A stretch of DNA of 33,108 bases from Oscillospiraceae bacterium (GTDB lineage Bacteria; Bacillota; Clostridia; Oscillospirales; Acutalibacteraceae): NCBI GenBank assembly GCA_015066045.1, contig SVPD01000024.1, positions 1 through 33,108 of the forward strand, given 5' to 3'. Position 1 is the stretch's first letter; the number at the start of each line of letters is the position of its first letter. Made by a program: the position numbers and the translations under genes. This document shows positions 444 through 11,022 of this stretch, in pieces. A model generated the notes under the pieces. That model was not told where the DNA came from. It saw only the letters and a list, made by a program, of their open reading frames with translations, and made no database searches.

Positions 444-1859
444 ATGACAGAAAAATCCTTTGAGTGGCTTCCTCTCGACAATGCAGGCAAGATTTTTCCC
501 GGACAGAACTCTGAGAAATGGTCAAATGTTTTCCGTATGTCCGTTCAGCTTAAGGAGGACATAGAGCCCGACACTCTGAAAGAAGCCCTGAAGCGTACTC
601 TGGACAGAATACCGAGCCTTAAGGTCAGACTCAGAAAAAGTCTTTTTGCCGACTATTTCGAAAGAAACGAAAAGGAATGTCCCGTCAGACACGACGTAAA
701 AAATTTCTGCTACAGGATAAATTTCAAAGAAAACAACGGCTACCTTTTCAGGATTTTCTACCATAAAAGCCGCATCAGCATCGATGTGTACCACGCTCTG
801 TGTGACGGCTACGGTGCCTCTGTCTTTCTTTGCACTCTCGCAGGTGAATATCTTCGTCTCAGAGGCTATGATATCTCTCACGCACCCTCCGTGCTGGATG
901 TAAATGAAAAGGCAAAGGCGGAGGAATACGCAGATCCCTATGAGCTATATGCCACCTCTGATAAAACCTGTAAGCTTCTGGAAACACCCGCATACCATAA
1001 AAAAGGCACTGCCCTGCCCGCCCATATGAGCCATTACACCACTGTGCTTATGTCCTTCAGTGAGCTTCACGCTCTGAGCAAAAGCTACTCTGTTACGGTG
1101 ACGGAGCTTCTGGCTGCGATTCTGGCAGACATTCACTACCGTAAGCAGCTTTCCGAGTGCAAAAGGCAAAAGGACGTTTCTGTGCAGATTCCCGTAAATC
1201 TGAGAAAGGCCTTTCCCACTGTCTCGCTGAGAAATTTCGTAATCTGCCTGACGGTAAAAATAAGCCCGCGAAAAAAAGAATACAGCTTCGAAGAAATAGT
1301 CAGAGCCGTTTCGGAGCAGCTGAGAGCGGCAAACAACAGAGATTTTCTCCACGCCTACATAACCCAGACCGTAAAGCTGCAAACCGTACTGCTGCGCTTC
1401 GTTCCCCTTATAATAAAAAACACGGCAGTCAAGGTCAGCTTTTTCTTCGGTGCGGAATACTCTACCTCCGCTCTTCTGTCAAATCTCGGCCCCGTGTCTG
1501 TTCCCGAGGAGATGAAGGAGCATATAGAAAGCTTTTCGTTTTTCACGGGCCCCGGACTCGTAAACGGCTGCCGCTGCGGTGCCGCATCCGTGGGAGACCG
1601 TTTCGCCTTTACCTTTTCTAACCGCTATGAGGAAAGCGACATAGAAAGGGAATTTATAAAAAAGCTGACGGATATGGGAATCAGGGTAGCTCTGGAAACT
1701 AACAGAAGCGAATTTTTATCCTCTCCGCAGCTTATTCCTCTCGCAGACACAGAGGCCTGCTCCGACGAAGTGTTTATTCCCTCTGCAGAGGACAGAGCAG
1801 ACTTCGGAAAATCGCCCCTCGGCACGAAAGAAAAAATCAGACGTTTCTTTATCTCCTGA
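444..1859 (+). CDS. Condensation-domain-like acyltransferase (alcohol acetyltransferase family)
   Basis: A 471-aa cytoplasmic protein with the HxxxDG signature of CoA-dependent acyltransferases and NRPS condensation domains: H117-ALC-D121-G122. The His is the expected general base for acyl transfer to an alcohol or amine. The C-terminal part has the TFSNRYEESD-type strand typical of the alcohol acetyltransferase/PapA-like group. Length fits that fold (two chloramphenicol-acetyltransferase-like halves). The start is supported by AAAGGA 8 bp upstream and a consensus promoter. Glycerate kinase follows 19 bp downstream, so the two are probably cotranscribed. The acyl donor and acceptor cannot be read from sequence. 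No adenylation or carrier domain is nearby, so a stand-alone enzyme is more likely than part of an NRPS. Confidence 0.75.
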   Translation: MTEKSFEWLPLDNAGKIFPGQNSEKWSNVFRMSVQLKEDIEPDTLKEALKRTLDRIPSLKVRLRKSLFADYFERNEKECPVRHDVKNFCYRINFKENNGYLFRIFYHKSRISIDVYHALCDGYGASVFLCTLAGEYLRLRGYDISHAPSVLDVNEKAKAEEYADPYELYATSDKTCKLLETPAYHKKGTALPAHMSHYTTVLMSFSELHALSKSYSVTVTELLAAILADIHYRKQLSECKRQKDVSVQIPVNLRKAFPTVSLRNFVICLTVKISPRKKEYSFEEIVRAVSEQLRAANNRDFLHAYITQTVKLQTVLLRFVPLIIKNTAVKVSFFFGAEYSTSALLSNLGPVSVPEEMKEHIESFSFFTGPGLVNGCRCGAASVGDRFAFTFSNRYEESDIEREFIKKLTDMGIRVALETNRSEFLSSPQLIPLADTEACSDEVFIPSAEDRADFGKSPLGTKEKIRRFFIS

Positions 1860-6493: not shown

Positions 6494-7381
6494 TCAATCT
6501 TCGCCCTTTGTCAGCAGCTTTATGGCATAGCGTGCATAAGCAGAAAGGTACTGCCCCTTCTTTACCACCACTGCCGGCTGCCTGAGATAAAAGCTGTTTT
6601 TCAGCTTTACCACCGTAACATTTCTGTGCCTTTTTCCGTTTACGAACTGCAGAGGAAGCAGCGTGGCACCCACTCCCGCACAGGCCATCTCCCATGCACT
6701 GGTGAGATTAACCACCTCGGCAGCAATCTGCGGCCTTACATCCGAATGGATACATAGCTTTTCGAAAAGCTGCCTCATTTCCTGACCTGCACCGAGAACT
6801 ACAAAGGGAATATCCTTACAGAGAGAAAAATCCGTTTCCTCGGACACGCTGAAATCAGTCTTTATGCTTTCGGGTATAACCAAGGCCAGTCTGTCCGGCT
6901 CGATAAGAACGGCATCCAGCACGCTTTCGTCCACGGGCATATTTACCACTGCGAAATCAAACATACCCTCTGCCGCATTCTTTCTCAGTGCTTCACTGCC
7001 CTCCTCGGCAAGCTTCACCTGTACTCCCGGAAATTTTTCTCTTACTTTTTTTACCGTTTCGGGAATAAGGTAGGCACTGCGGAAGGGTGTGATGCCTATA
7101 ACCAGCTGCCCCTTGTCTCCGCTTCCGAACTGCTCCATGGATTTCATAAGCTGAGACTCTCTGTAAAGAATCTCTCTGGCCTCACGGATAAAATGCTCGC
7201 CCGCAGCCGTCAGAGTAACCGGATTACGGTTACGGTCGAAAAGCTGAACACCCAGCTCCTTTTCCAGAGAGAGAATCTGCTTACTCAGAGCAGGCTGAGT
7301 GATATTAAGGCTCTCGGCTACGTGAGAAAAATTTCCCGACTCCGAAAGCAGAACGGCATACTGTAATTGTCTCGAATTCAC
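6494..7381 (-). CDS. LysR family transcriptional regulator
   Basis: 295 aa, standard for the family. The N-terminal winged helix-turn-helix spans about residues 1-60 (MNSRQLQYAVLL, then ITQPALSKQILSLEKELG and the LFDRN wing). The rest is the periplasmic-binding-protein-like effector domain (GITPFRSAYLIPETV, FDFAVVNMPVDE). The start is GTG at 7381 after AAGGTGGTG. It is transcribed divergently from the DctM-type permease gene with 245 bp between them, the classic arrangement in which the LysR protein controls its neighbour and responds to the transported ligand or a metabolite of it. The ligand is not predictable. Confidence 0.93.
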   Translation of the reverse strand: MNSRQLQYAVLLSESGNFSHVAESLNITQPALSKQILSLEKELGVQLFDRNRNPVTLTAAGEHFIREAREILYRESQLMKSMEQFGSGDKGQLVIGITPFRSAYLIPETVKKVREKFPGVQVKLAEEGSEALRKNAAEGMFDFAVVNMPVDESVLDAVLIEPDRLALVIPESIKTDFSVSEETDFSLCKDIPFVVLGAGQEMRQLFEKLCIHSDVRPQIAAEVVNLTSAWEMACAGVGATLLPLQFVNGKRHRNVTVVKLKNSFYLRQPAVVVKKGQYLSAYARYAIKLLTKGED

Positions 7382-7626: not shown

Positions 7627-8991
7627 ATGGAATCTTTGCTGTATTTAGGCATTATGCTGGCAGTTATCTGCATATGGTTCCTGGCCTTCAAGCGTCCCGT
7701 TTATGAGGCAGTTCTTCTCGCCTTCGTGGTGCTTCTGGCCGTTACGGGTACCTGGCCGAATGTTCTGGACTATATCAATGAGGGCTTGTCCACCTCACTG
7801 CTTTATTCGATGGTTGCCTTCGTTTCTATGTCAATCATCCTCACTAAGACGAAAATCGTAGACAGCTGCATCGCAGTTATCCTTTCCTTCATCGGCCGTA
7901 TCAGAGGCGGTGCGGGCTACACTGCCGTTATAGCCAGTGCCTTTATGGGTGCGCTTTCCGGCTCCGGTCCGGGTAATGTTATGGCTACAGGCTCTCTCAC
8001 CATCCCTGCCATGAAAAAGACAGGCTTCCCTGCAGAGCTGGCCGCTAACATCGAGTCCAATGCAAGCTATATGGGTAATATGATCCCTCCTTCATCAAAT
8101 ATCGTGGCAGCCATGGCCGCTTATACCGCCTATGCTGCAGCTAACGGCTTGGAGGAAGTTTCACAGGGTAAATTCTGGATAGTTCTCTGGGGCATCTCCG
8201 CTTGGTTCATCGCCCAGCGTCTCATTATGGTATGGGCCTTCTGTAAGCATTATAAGGTAGAGAAGATGAAAAAGGAAGACCTCCCCGACCTTAAGGAAAC
8301 CCTGAAAATCGGCTGGCAGGCTATGCTTCTCCCCGTCATTATTCTTCTCCCCTTTATTCTTGACGCTGCCTTCTCCGATAATTTCTTCGTGGAGCGTCTC
8401 GGTGCAGACGGAGCCAAGTATCTTTCGAAGTCCGTGCTTCTTTTCGTCGGAGGTATTTCCTCCATTTATGCCTGCCTCATCGCCAAGGATAAATCCGCAG
8501 TTACCCCCGCCAAGCTGGCAAAGATGTTCGCAGACGGTGTGAAAACCATCTCTCCCGCCATCGCAGTATGCGTGTTCGGCTATATGATCGGTGCTATGTT
8601 CGATGACCTCGGTGTAGCCGAGGCTCTCGGTGAGGTTATGGCTTCATGGAGCTTCAGTAAGCTCGGTATGGTTCTGGCTATCTGCGCCATCACCTGTGTA
8701 ATGGGTATGGTGGTTCCCGGCTCATCTCAGGTAGTTATCTTCGGACCTGTTTTCATCACCCTTCTGGCAAACGTAGGTGTAAGCCCACTTCTGGCTGCCG
8801 CTATGCTTCCCTGTATCTGCGGCGTTATGTGCGGCATTACTCCTCCCCTCGGTCTCGGTATGTATGCCGGTATGACCATCGCACGGTCCGATTTCAGCAA
8901 AACCTTTAAAAATAACATGTGGTGGGTAGTAGCACAGTTCGTTCTTCAGGTCGCTGTCCTGATGGGCTGGCTGCCCGTCTTCGGAATATAA
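7627..8991 (+). CDS. TRAP transporter large permease, DctM-like
   Basis: 454 aa with about 12 hydrophobic segments. The first half carries SGSGPGNVMATGSLTIPAMK followed by a SYMGNMIPPSS loop. The second half has the related VVPGSSQVVIFGP and CGITPPLGLGMYAG loops, giving the two internally related halves of the DctM/ion-transporter superfamily. TRAP permeases import organic acids with Na+ and normally need a DctP binding protein and a DctQ small subunit. Neither is present here; instead a 97-aa membrane protein follows 12 bp later. AAGGAG precedes the ATG. The substrate is unknown; a divergent LysR gene suggests an inducible organic anion. A non-TRAP member of the same superfamily is the main alternative. 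Confidence 0.75.
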   Translation: MESLLYLGIMLAVICIWFLAFKRPVYEAVLLAFVVLLAVTGTWPNVLDYINEGLSTSLLYSMVAFVSMSIILTKTKIVDSCIAVILSFIGRIRGGAGYTAVIASAFMGALSGSGPGNVMATGSLTIPAMKKTGFPAELAANIESNASYMGNMIPPSSNIVAAMAAYTAYAAANGLEEVSQGKFWIVLWGISAWFIAQRLIMVWAFCKHYKVEKMKKEDLPDLKETLKIGWQAMLLPVIILLPFILDAAFSDNFFVERLGADGAKYLSKSVLLFVGGISSIYACLIAKDKSAVTPAKLAKMFADGVKTISPAIAVCVFGYMIGAMFDDLGVAEALGEVMASWSFSKLGMVLAICAITCVMGMVVPGSSQVVIFGPVFITLLANVGVSPLLAAAMLPCICGVMCGITPPLGLGMYAGMTIARSDFSKTFKNNMWWVVAQFVLQVAVLMGWLPVFGI

Positions 8992-9003: not shown

Positions 9004-9297
9004 ATGAAAGAATTCTGTAAAAAGCTTTCGGCTGTGCTGAAGACAATCTTCGGCTACGGCATCATGATTTGCCTGTTTGCGGGCGGTCTCACCTTCTTCG
9101 GCTATGTGGCTGCACTCATTATCGGCGGCGATACGGCTGCAGCTATCTGCACCTTCCTTTACAAGACAGTTATCCCCGTTATCATCTATCTGTCCGTAAT
9201 AATGGTGCTTCTCGGTCTGGTCGCTATGTACCTGAACGGAGAAAAGGCTCTCACTCCCGAAAAGAAAGAATCGAAAAAGCACGAGGGCGAAATGTAA
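9004..9297 (+). CDS. Small membrane protein, candidate partner of the DctM-like permease
   Basis: A 97-aa protein with two or possibly three membrane segments (about residues 15-40 and 50-82) and a charged Lys/Glu C-terminal tail. AAGGAGG stands 7 bp before the ATG and the gap to the permease gene is 12 bp, so it is cotranscribed and well translated. It is shorter than a DctQ subunit (about 150-200 aa, four helices) and shows no DctQ motif I recognise. From position alone I infer a reduced small subunit or stabiliser of the permease. A terminator follows at 9312. Confidence 0.75.
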   Translation: MKEFCKKLSAVLKTIFGYGIMICLFAGGLTFFGYVAALIIGGDTAAAICTFLYKTVIPVIIYLSVIMVLLGLVAMYLNGEKALTPEKKESKKHEGEM

Positions 9298-9311: not shown

Positions 9312-9356
9312 AAACCGCTGTATCTGCCTCAGGCCTTTTACAGCGGTTTGATTTTT
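9312..9356 (+). terminator. Intrinsic terminator of the permease operon
   Basis: AAACCGCTGTA (9312-9322) pairs perfectly with TACAGCGGTTT (9339-9349), followed by GATTTTTT. Confidence 0.85.
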
Positions 9357-9417
9357 TCTATCGGCTACCCGCAAAAGGTAAGTCCGATATTTTTTTAATC
9401 TTTTTTAATCAAACCCG

Positions 9418-9446
9418 TTGCTTTTTTTAAGACTGTGTAGTATAAT
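9418..9446 (+). promoter_or_regulatory. Promoter of the ArsB/NhaD-type transporter
   Basis: TTGCTT (9418-9423) and consensus TATAAT (9441-9446) with the optimal 17-bp spacer. The start of transcription is expected at about 9452, the first base of the structured leader, leaving a 5' UTR of roughly 195 nt. Confidence 0.7.
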
Positions 9447-9450
9447 TCTC

Positions 9451-9607
9451 ACTGCAATCCCGATAAGTGGTGGAGTCTGTCATAGAATGTAATAGCATTC
9501 TATTTATAAGGATTGCGGCTTCGTGCCTTTTATCACTGAGGGGCATTGTGACATAAAAGGCGAGGCTTTATGAAATCCGCTGCAGTTCAGGTGGGTTTTA
9601 TTTTTTT
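9451..9607 (+). ncRNA. Structured 5' leader, candidate riboswitch with attenuator
   Basis: Starting at the predicted +1, ACTGCA (9451-9456) can close on TGCAGT (9581-9586). Inside are a perfect 8-bp hairpin (9482-9489 with 9496-9503) and a perfect 9-bp stem (9525-9533 with 9553-9561) extended by CAC/GTG. Alternatives exist: GCAATCC (9454-9460) with GGATTGC (9510-9516), and GGATT (9510-9514) with AATCC (9574-9578). The last 3' segment can form AATCCGC/GTGGGTT (9574-9580, 9591-9597) followed by a 12-nt run with one A among Ts, a plausible terminator. Mutually exclusive pairings are what a transcription-attenuating riboswitch needs. I cannot match it to a known class; an ion-sensing class would suit the downstream gene. 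Confidence 0.55.
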
Positions 9608-9648
9608 GTACAGACACGCCCGAAAATAATCTTAAGGAGTTTTTAAAA

Positions 9649-11022
9649 ATGAGTCCTATTACCATTACTGCTCTGATTATCTTCGCCGTGACATACATCC
9701 TTATGCTGGCTTTTCAGAAAATCAGACCTTATGTGACTGTCGGTTCTGCTCTGGTGTTCGTGACACTCGGCATTATCGCTTCGTCAAATCCCGCTCTTTT
9801 CGGCGAAGGCTTCTTCGCTCTTTCATCAGGTAATTACAGTTATTCCGTCGGCGCTGCCCTTTCGGAAATCGACTGGAATGTTATTATGATGATAGCAGGT
9901 ACTATGGGTACCGTTTACCTTTTCATCGAATCAAAGATGCCTCAGCTTATGTCTGACATCCTTATTTCGAAGATGCCCAATATGAAATGGGTTGTGGTCG
10001 CACTCTCTCTTTTCGCAGGCATCGTCTCCGCCTTCGTGGACAATGTGGCCACCGTGCTTATGATCGCCCCCGTAGCACTCGCCTTCTGCAAAAAGATAAA
10101 TGTCTCACCTGTTCCTGCCATCATCTGCATCGCCGTTTCCTCTAATTTACAGGGTGCGGCTACTCTCGTAGGTGATACCACCTCCATCCTTCTGGCCAAG
10201 GCGGCAAATCTGGATTTCTCCGATTTCTTCGTTCATGACGGCCACGTGGGTATGTTCTGGGTAGTACAGGCCGGCGCTATCGTAAGTGCATTAATCATCG
10301 TCTGGATGTTCCGTAAGGATAAAGATAAAATCTCCTTTGAGGGAAGAACTGTAGTCGAGGACAAATTCCCAACCTACCTTCTCGTGGGCACAGTCCTCTC
10401 CCTTATTGCCGTTTCCTTCATCCCCTACAAGGATGCTGCCGCTCCCGGCCAGCTCTGGAAGCCCGACATCACAAACGGTATTCTCTGTATCGCCTTTTTC
10501 CTCGTAGGTGTTATACGTGAACTTTTCGTCAAGAAAAACAAGAAAATCGTAAAAAACGCCTTTAAAGAGATCGACTATTATACCATCGTCCTTCTCTCAG
10601 GTCTTTTCGTGGTAATCGGCGGTATCAAAAACGCCGGTGTTATCGACGTTATCGGCTCAGCCATTGCCTCACTCGGCTCAGGCTCCACCTTTATGGTTTA
10701 CACCATCATCGTGTGGATGAGTGTTATACTTTCAGCATTCATTGATAATATTCCCTATACCGCGACGATGCTTTCTATCGTACCCGTTATCGCAGGCGAT
10801 CTGGGCATAGAGCCCACTCTCCTTTACTACGGACTTCTCTGCGGTGCCACTCTCGGCGGCAACCTTACTCCCATCGGTGCCAGTGCAAACATCGCAGGTA
10901 TCGGTATTCTCCGTAAGGAGGGGCATGAGGTAAAGGCTACCACCTTTATGAAATACGGTGTGCCCTTCACCTTGGCCGCAGTTATCACAGGTTATCTCCT
11001 TCTGTGGCTCATCTGGAAATAA
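9649..11022 (+). CDS. ArsB/NhaD-type ion transporter (SLC13/CitM superfamily)
   Basis: 457 aa with about 11-12 membrane segments in two related halves. Paired signature loops are SAFVDNVATVLMIAPVALAF with GDTTSILLA in the first half, and SAFIDNIPYTATMLSIVPV with GGNLTPIGASANIAG in the second. This pattern is typical of the ArsB/NhaD permease group: Na+/H+ antiport, arsenite efflux or anion transport. No arsR, arsC or arsA is adjacent, so an Na+/H+ or anion role is more likely than arsenic resistance. AAGGAG precedes the ATG. Expression probably depends on the long structured leader at 9451-9607. The gene is monocistronic, ending at the hairpin at 11061. Confidence 0.85.
   Translation: MSPITITALIIFAVTYILMLAFQKIRPYVTVGSALVFVTLGIIASSNPALFGEGFFALSSGNYSYSVGAALSEIDWNVIMMIAGTMGTVYLFIESKMPQLMSDILISKMPNMKWVVVALSLFAGIVSAFVDNVATVLMIAPVALAFCKKINVSPVPAIICIAVSSNLQGAATLVGDTTSILLAKAANLDFSDFFVHDGHVGMFWVVQAGAIVSALIIVWMFRKDKDKISFEGRTVVEDKFPTYLLVGTVLSLIAVSFIPYKDAAAPGQLWKPDITNGILCIAFFLVGVIRELFVKKNKKIVKNAFKEIDYYTIVLLSGLFVVIGGIKNAGVIDVIGSAIASLGSGSTFMVYTIIVWMSVILSAFIDNIPYTATMLSIVPVIAGDLGIEPTLLYYGLLCGATLGGNLTPIGASANIAGIGILRKEGHEVKATTFMKYGVPFTLAAVITGYLLLWLIWK

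Follow-up and report, generated by a model that had tools for sequence, protein, structure and literature searches.

The window, by which we mean the whole analysed stretch of 33,108 nucleotides (contig SVPD01000024.1), carries a gene for a CitMHS/ArsB-type permease that is preceded by a structured leader (Table 1). NCBIfam returned matches of the permease to MamN, ArsB and NhaD, all of them below the cut-offs. Upstream of the leader, a LysR-type regulator gene (6494–7381, minus strand) is divergent from a TRAP DctM permease gene (7627–8991), which is followed by a 97-residue open reading frame (9004–9297) with no Pfam match.

Table 1. Coordinates of the leader and of the gene behind it
Feature	Position	Strand	Basis or remark
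−10 box TATAAT	9441–9446	+	Sequence; weak −35 TTGCTT at 9418–9423, spacer 17
Conserved aptamer-like domain	9453–9517	+	Model R1 71.8 bits (window copy among the R1 training sequences), model R2 68.7 bits
P1a 5′ strand GCAATCC	9454–9460	+	Pairs with 9510–9516
P1b 5′ strand ATAA	9463–9466	+	Pairs with 9504–9507
One-sided bulge GTGGTGGAGTCTGTC (core)	9467–9481	+	Nearly invariant; proposed upstream half of the antiterminator
P2 hairpin ATAGAATG-TAATAG-CATTCTAT	9482–9503	+	Covariation; 8 bp, 9482–9489 with 9496–9503
P1b 3′ strand TTAT	9504–9507	+	Covariation
P1a 3′ strand GGATTGC	9510–9516	+	GGATT 9510–9514 alternatively pairs with AATCC 9574–9578
Linker hairpin, 9-bp stem GCCTTTTAT/ATAAAAGGC	9517–9567	+	Fold
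Intrinsic terminator and T-tract	9570–9607	+	Terminator scan; terminator 9570–9601, T-tract to 9607
Ribosome binding site AAGGAG	9634–9639	+	Sequence
CitMHS/ArsB-type permease, 457 aa, regulated gene	9649–11022	+	Pfam CitMHS 1.9e-49, ArsB 1.9e-10

Judged from the position of the TATAAT box, the 5′ end of the RNA lies close to the first bases of P1. A first-pass annotation, made from the letters alone, had let the RNA start almost exactly at a predicted +1; the −10 box agrees with this, but the −35 element is weak and a strict scan found no promoter at its threshold near the box. Of 122 homologues from the searches described below, 85 have a −10-like sequence in the 32 nt before the domain, compared to 18 of 121 control windows.

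The leader folds with −51.4 kcal/mol, against −38 (sd 3.75) for 200 dinucleotide shuffles (z = −3.57), and the terminator scan returned one terminator where 0.4 were expected in shuffles. The earlier proposal of a structured leader with attenuator logic is thus borne out: the two perfect hairpins of 8 and 9 bp, the terminator stem with its T-tract, the GCAATCC/GGATTGC pairing (P1a, which covaries in homologues) and the alternative GGATT/AATCC pairing are all present in, or possible for, the sequence. Its extent needs correction, as the conserved unit comprises only about 65 nt with two helices and a 15-nt bulge. When homologues were compared by eye, the linker hairpin was partly kept in the closest relative (L002) only. 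A multi-branched closure by ACTGCA 9451–9456 and TGCAGT 9581–9586 had also been suggested. These segments can indeed pair, and the closed form is the predicted minimum of the transcript 9451–9586 (−40.1); it is lost in the full-length fold, and by eye the pairing is absent in L002, L003 and L004. We therefore rejected it as a conserved aptamer stem and regard it as at most one antiterminator fold of the window copy.

Conservation and covariation of the domain

A BLASTN search with 9440–9650 found matches in 15 of 98 genomes including its own, all but one in the same genus, and outside close relatives conservation was limited to about the first 65 nt. With an E-value limit of 0.01, a covariance model built from 11 of these sequences (R1) had matches in 26 of the 394 genomes searched in the order, representing 19 of 169 genera. 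With a second model built from 40 copies (R2), matches were obtained in 8 of 391 genomes of the class, four of them above 45 bits and the others at 23–26 bits, and in 6 of 398 genomes of the phylum, where the only strong match was in the element's own genome. Four family searches yielded 7 of 21, 10 of 63, 11 of 190 and 10 of 167 genomes, partly those found before. The pattern AAGYGGTGGAGTCTGTCA occurred in at least 117 stretches of the named genome collection; of the 117 loci listed, R2 matched 103 (101 strongly, two weakly), while 14, including Lentzea, Streptomyces and Dysgonomonas, had no R2 match. The carriers among the matches listed include Gemmiger, Pseudoflavonifractor, Agathobaculum, Massilimicrobiota, Erysipelatoclostridium and Candidatus Blautia species.

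Some candidates were set aside. L048, L050, L051 and L169–L173 scored 23–28 bits and proved on inspection to be mostly coding sequence or to miss much of the core; L049, L122 and L168 were left out of the counts as doubtful, and L197 (28 bits) was not counted. A viral collection contained 21 pattern stretches; the model matched 12 of them, in no case reaching 24 bits, and we took these matches as chance.

The domain consists of a stem P1, a 15-nt one-sided bulge (GYGGUGGAGUCUGUC) and the hairpin P2. In an alignment of 100 copies from 99 loci, which was fitted to the model and therefore favours it, the 19 consensus pairs were formed in 92.2% of the cells, compared to 73.4% in shuffled alignments and at most 56.5% when the pairing was slid. 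Double changes occupied 367 cells versus 122 in shuffles, with a covariation score of 0.579 versus 0.236; neither value was reached by any of 500 shuffles. Counting pairs is less discriminating, with double changes in 17 of 19 pairs against a shuffle average of 14.8, a value of 17 being reached by 17 of the 500 shuffles. The least regular helix is P1a (82.7% of cells paired, double changes in 7 of 7 pairs), followed by P2 (96.6%, 6 of 7) and P1b (98.7%, 4 of 5 model pairs). Among the copies, P2 even exchanges a whole block, from AUAG/CUAU to ACCG/CGGU. RNAalifold, run on the same alignment, predicted the same three helices by itself, with compensatory changes in 15 of 17 pairs. The covariation check that the first-pass annotation had called for thus came out in favour of a functional RNA, and we regard it as practically certain that this conserved domain in 5′ leaders is a real structured RNA.

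The bulge, which had not been singled out before, is nearly invariant. It sits on the 5′ side only, between P1b and P2, and the two A-U pairs that flank it never vary. Copies found with the exact pattern have the core fixed by construction, and we therefore quote its conservation only from the other 63 of the 100 rows, which came from BLAST or from the core-trained model and in some cases represent the same genome twice. In these rows the second base varies (C in 21, U in 40, A in 2), and three other bases depart once each. The individual departures are GGC in L022 and A at base 2 in L028, both before pyruvate kinase genes; GCGAUGG in L047 and A at base 2 in L176, both before genes for the membrane pyrophosphatase HppA; and GAGCCUGUC in the copy of L198 (1501–1569) and L200, directly upstream of an Mrp-type Na+/H+ antiporter operon. 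The pyruvate kinase leaders L187, L188 and L189 (about 1501–1567, minus strand) share a distinct P1b resembling GCGAG..CUAUUCGC. Together with the bulge changes in L022 and L028, these departures perhaps mark a ligand variant.

Terminator and proposed antiterminator

An intrinsic terminator follows 114 of 123 domains. Its 5′ arm often contains the complement of the bulge: the motif GRCAGR was found in 56 of 112 arms. Of 791 other terminators, taken as background from 91 of these loci, 25 carry it (odds ratio 31; p = 5e-38, a value made too small by relatedness). Including 8 nt more upstream, the motif is present in 68 of 112 arms, distributed over the leaders of ArsB (15 of 26), TrkH (9 of 13), PiT (13 of 19), HppA (19 of 31) and DUF1538 genes (5 of 9); it occurs in none of the four pyruvate kinase leaders. 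In half of the arms, the strict motif is missing. The duplex energy between core and arm, tried before the motif, agrees more weakly and is only moderate evidence (mean −11.8; with 300 shuffled cores the means averaged −8.9 with an sd of 1.1, and the lowest was −12.0). Contiguous runs of at least 7 pairs are only slightly more frequent than in the background (0.50 versus 0.32), and runs of at least 8 or 9 are hardly enriched. Relatedness of the sequences inflates all counts given here.

Since the terminator arm so often carries the bulge complement, the aptamer together with the terminator on the one hand, and the antiterminator on the other, are mutually exclusive. Computed folds are consistent with such an expression platform. 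Of 111 transcripts truncated at the 5′ arm, 77 place five or more expected pairs between bulge and arm, and in only 18 does P1b have a probability above 0.5. When eight full-length leaders were folded, seven formed the terminator and one (L082) the antiterminator; a domain-like P1 and P2 were present in five of the seven, while L029 and L151 fold that part otherwise. In the window copy, arm positions 9576–9583 are complementary to core positions 9467–9474, and the two competing folds have nearly equal energies, −38.6 with the aptamer and −38.1 with the bulge-arm duplex. Core-arm pairing is weak in this copy (1.6 expected pairs); the closed fold of 9451–9586 provides a second possible antiterminator. 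We conclude that the element is very probably an attenuator.

We propose that a bound ligand would keep the bulge inside the P1/P2 domain, which would leave the terminator arm free, so that the terminator forms and the gene is switched off. Without ligand, the bulge (GGAGUCUGUC) would capture the arm (GACAGAnYCC) and transcription would continue. As P1, with its covarying pairs, is part of the structure in which the terminator can form, the ligand should switch the gene off, and an OFF switch is the likely direction.

Genes behind the domain and the proposed ligand

Each domain was assigned the nearest gene that lies on its own strand, no more than 900 nt away, and matches one of a fixed set of seed proteins, whose families were named by Pfam and NCBIfam; an unseeded gene in between would escape this procedure. 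For 127 non-redundant copies, which include the pattern-found ones among the matches listed, the genes are HppA (38), CitMHS/ArsB (27), PiT (20), TrkH (12), DUF1538 (9) and pyruvate kinase (7), with one each of a P-type ATPase, OadB, a Na/Ca exchanger, an LPG-synthase-like protein, NptA, Mrp and a glutamate-synthase-like protein; five are classed as other, one of which (L060) shows by eye an HppA-like start with a broken frame, and two lie at contig ends. The 37 copies that remain without the pattern-found ones precede HppA (12), ArsB (8), pyruvate kinase (5) and PiT (3), with no TrkH and no DUF1538, some pattern-free duplicates having been merged into pattern-found copies. Several copies can share a contig or genome, for example before TrkH and HppA (L081), before PiT and HppA (L100), or before PiT, LPG-synthase-like and HppA genes (genome G347). 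The element looks like a compact, strongly conserved RNA switch that Clostridia and their relatives carry in front of many different genes for ion pumps and transporters. These genes point to ion homeostasis, in line with the first-pass hypothesis of an ion- or metabolite-sensing riboswitch. The more specific link to ArsB/NhaD-type transporters holds for the window, where the downstream gene is of CitMHS/ArsB type, but the element is not tied to such genes (27 of 127 copies). Compared with the window protein, 24 of these 27 are 75–100% identical and three 53–55%.

The common theme of the genes is membrane ion transport and energy conservation. DUF1538 proteins resemble, below NCBIfam cut-offs, the Na,Li,K/H+ antiporter subunits UmpA and UmpB; the Mrp operon was confirmed by Pfam (MNHE, MrpF, MnhG, MnhB and antiporter domains), and the P-type ATPase is close to both Na,K-ATPase alpha and Ca2+ ATPases. 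The best solved relative of the pyrophosphatase seed by sequence is a K+-insensitive proton pump, and the seed, a partial protein, stays below the NCBIfam cut-offs for sodium-translocating pyrophosphatase, so that these enzymes may be H+ pumps. The two full HppA proteins examined carry GNTVKA, and five pyruvate kinases differ from one another at the position that, in an alignment by eye, corresponds to the K+ switch; we took these residues as uninformative about K+ dependence.

We favour, with middling confidence, the reading that 9453–9517 is a ligand-binding domain of a new riboswitch-like class, which would attenuate genes of ion transport and membrane energy in response to a monovalent cation. 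That the ligand is small rather than a protein appears probable; that it is an alkali cation is an evenly balanced prediction. K+ fits the OFF direction better, as for TrkH, and Na+ fits the gene list better, accounting for most gene types (Mrp, UmpAB-like, OadB, Na/Ca exchanger and perhaps HppA and PiT), although switching off would be odd for the Na+ exporters among them (Mrp, UmpAB-like, OadB). Neither ion gives a simple explanation for PiT and pyruvate kinase, and a monovalent cation remains the most likely ligand. Tentatively, the element could be the first K+- (or phosphate-) sensing riboswitch, a 65-nt RNA that would read cytoplasmic K+ or phosphate and jointly turn off K+ uptake, phosphate uptake, pyrophosphatase pumps and pyruvate kinase. 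An RNA this small and almost invariant that links pyrophosphatase pumps with the uptake of phosphate and K+, with Na+/H+ antiporters and with pyruvate kinase would reveal how Clostridia keep their ions in balance in step with energy metabolism. The domain is also short enough for direct biochemistry.

The same OFF switch might instead sense inorganic phosphate (or pyrophosphate). The 20 PiT genes and the one NptA encode phosphate importers, which would suit OFF logic directly, the 38 membrane pyrophosphatases release phosphate, and an NptA-like gene follows the DUF1538 genes of L059 and L067. TrkH (12 copies), Mrp, OadB, the Na/Ca exchanger and the P-type ATPase, however, have no obvious phosphate link, and we consider phosphate an unlikely ligand. 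The opposite logic, in which Na+ would favour the pairing of bulge and terminator arm in a pseudoknot-like fold and so induce Na+ exporters, draws on the gene set: Mrp, UmpAB-like, OadB, Na/Ca exchanger, TrkH and pyrophosphatase genes resemble the regulon described for the Na+-I riboswitch, an ON switch, in the portions of PMC9337991 compared. Yet the terminator partner lies at a variable distance and varies in sequence, and the covarying P1 is part of the fold that leaves the terminator free, which makes a Na+ ON switch improbable. A trans-acting protein could also recognise the bulge in an antitermination site, as a single invariant bulge could serve as one; the element is scattered (present in 19 of the order's 169 genera, and in other groups too), and this and the differing gene sets suit a stand-alone sensor better, so that a protein site is quite improbable. 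That the element is a diverged member of an established ion-riboswitch class (Na+-I, Li+-I, Li+-II, Na+-II or c-di-AMP) is very improbable, for although the gene types overlap, no Rfam family scored above its threshold over the domain, either in the window or at the other loci searched.

In keeping with the earlier failure to match several known classes, no family reached the Rfam gathering score anywhere in the window. Over the domain, none did so in 19 loci, and none appeared in 20 loci at E up to 1 (the two sets partly overlap). Four matches were returned over 9350–9720 at E up to 10, partly touching the leader (14.1–16 bits against cut-offs of 55–117), none of them an ion riboswitch. The library includes the Na+-I family (DUF1646 motif, RF03071, "Sodium"), whose model matched neither the leader, even with E allowed up to 10, nor any part of the genome. 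The nhaA-I and ydaO families were not among the matches to window or leader, insofar as the library searched contains their models; the Li+-I/Li+-II and Na+-II models presumably belong to it. Compared to the larger ydaO riboswitch, the element has a small two-helix fold and a regulon led by HppA, ArsB-type and PiT genes.

The excerpts of the literature compared (PMC9337991, PMC9646797, PMC11109978, PMC6429828, PMC7266159) describe classes with which the element shares features. Na+-I shares the leader aptamer, terminator-based control and a regulon of Na+ transport and use that includes oxaloacetate decarboxylase; it is reported there as an ON switch, whereas our element looks OFF by fold logic (PMC9337991). 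Li+-I/Li+-II and Na+-II (nhaA-I and nhaA-II motifs) likewise occupy leaders of ion transporters according to the text compared (PMC9646797), but none of our 127 copies was classed as nhaA with the fixed seed set. The ydaO c-di-AMP riboswitch, as these excerpts describe it, is an attenuator that terminates with ligand (PMC9337991), as proposed here, and is linked to K+ transporters (PMC7266159).

The alkali-ion riboswitches in the compared parts of the cited papers are for Na+ and Li+. A full-text literature search returned no occurrence of "K+ riboswitch" or "potassium riboswitch", no "inorganic phosphate riboswitch" among the matches listed, and no instance of the core letters in main texts, an unnamed motif in supplements being possible. 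The main texts of the papers searched for terms do not mention hppA, trkH or pyrophosphatase, and term searches of PMC8632094 and PMC8040213 gave no match. The class is best read as probably new relative to the Rfam models and the main texts searched; two of the papers also mention candidates named nqrA-II and TIGR03647.

Several loci have unusual surroundings. In L059 and L067, an apparent operon behind the switch comprises DUF1538, a PII-like protein (by eye) and a Na/Pi cotransporter (NptA-like), and in L085 the gene order is TrkH, TrkA-like, HppA. Helix-turn-helix transposase-like reading frames lie behind the domain in L023 and L038, and the frame between domain and PiT in L020 and L021 (after 1567) is, by eye, presumably also transposase-like. 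In L186/L201 (5915–5983, minus strand), the domain has no recognisable gene directly behind it on its own strand and is possibly an orphan.
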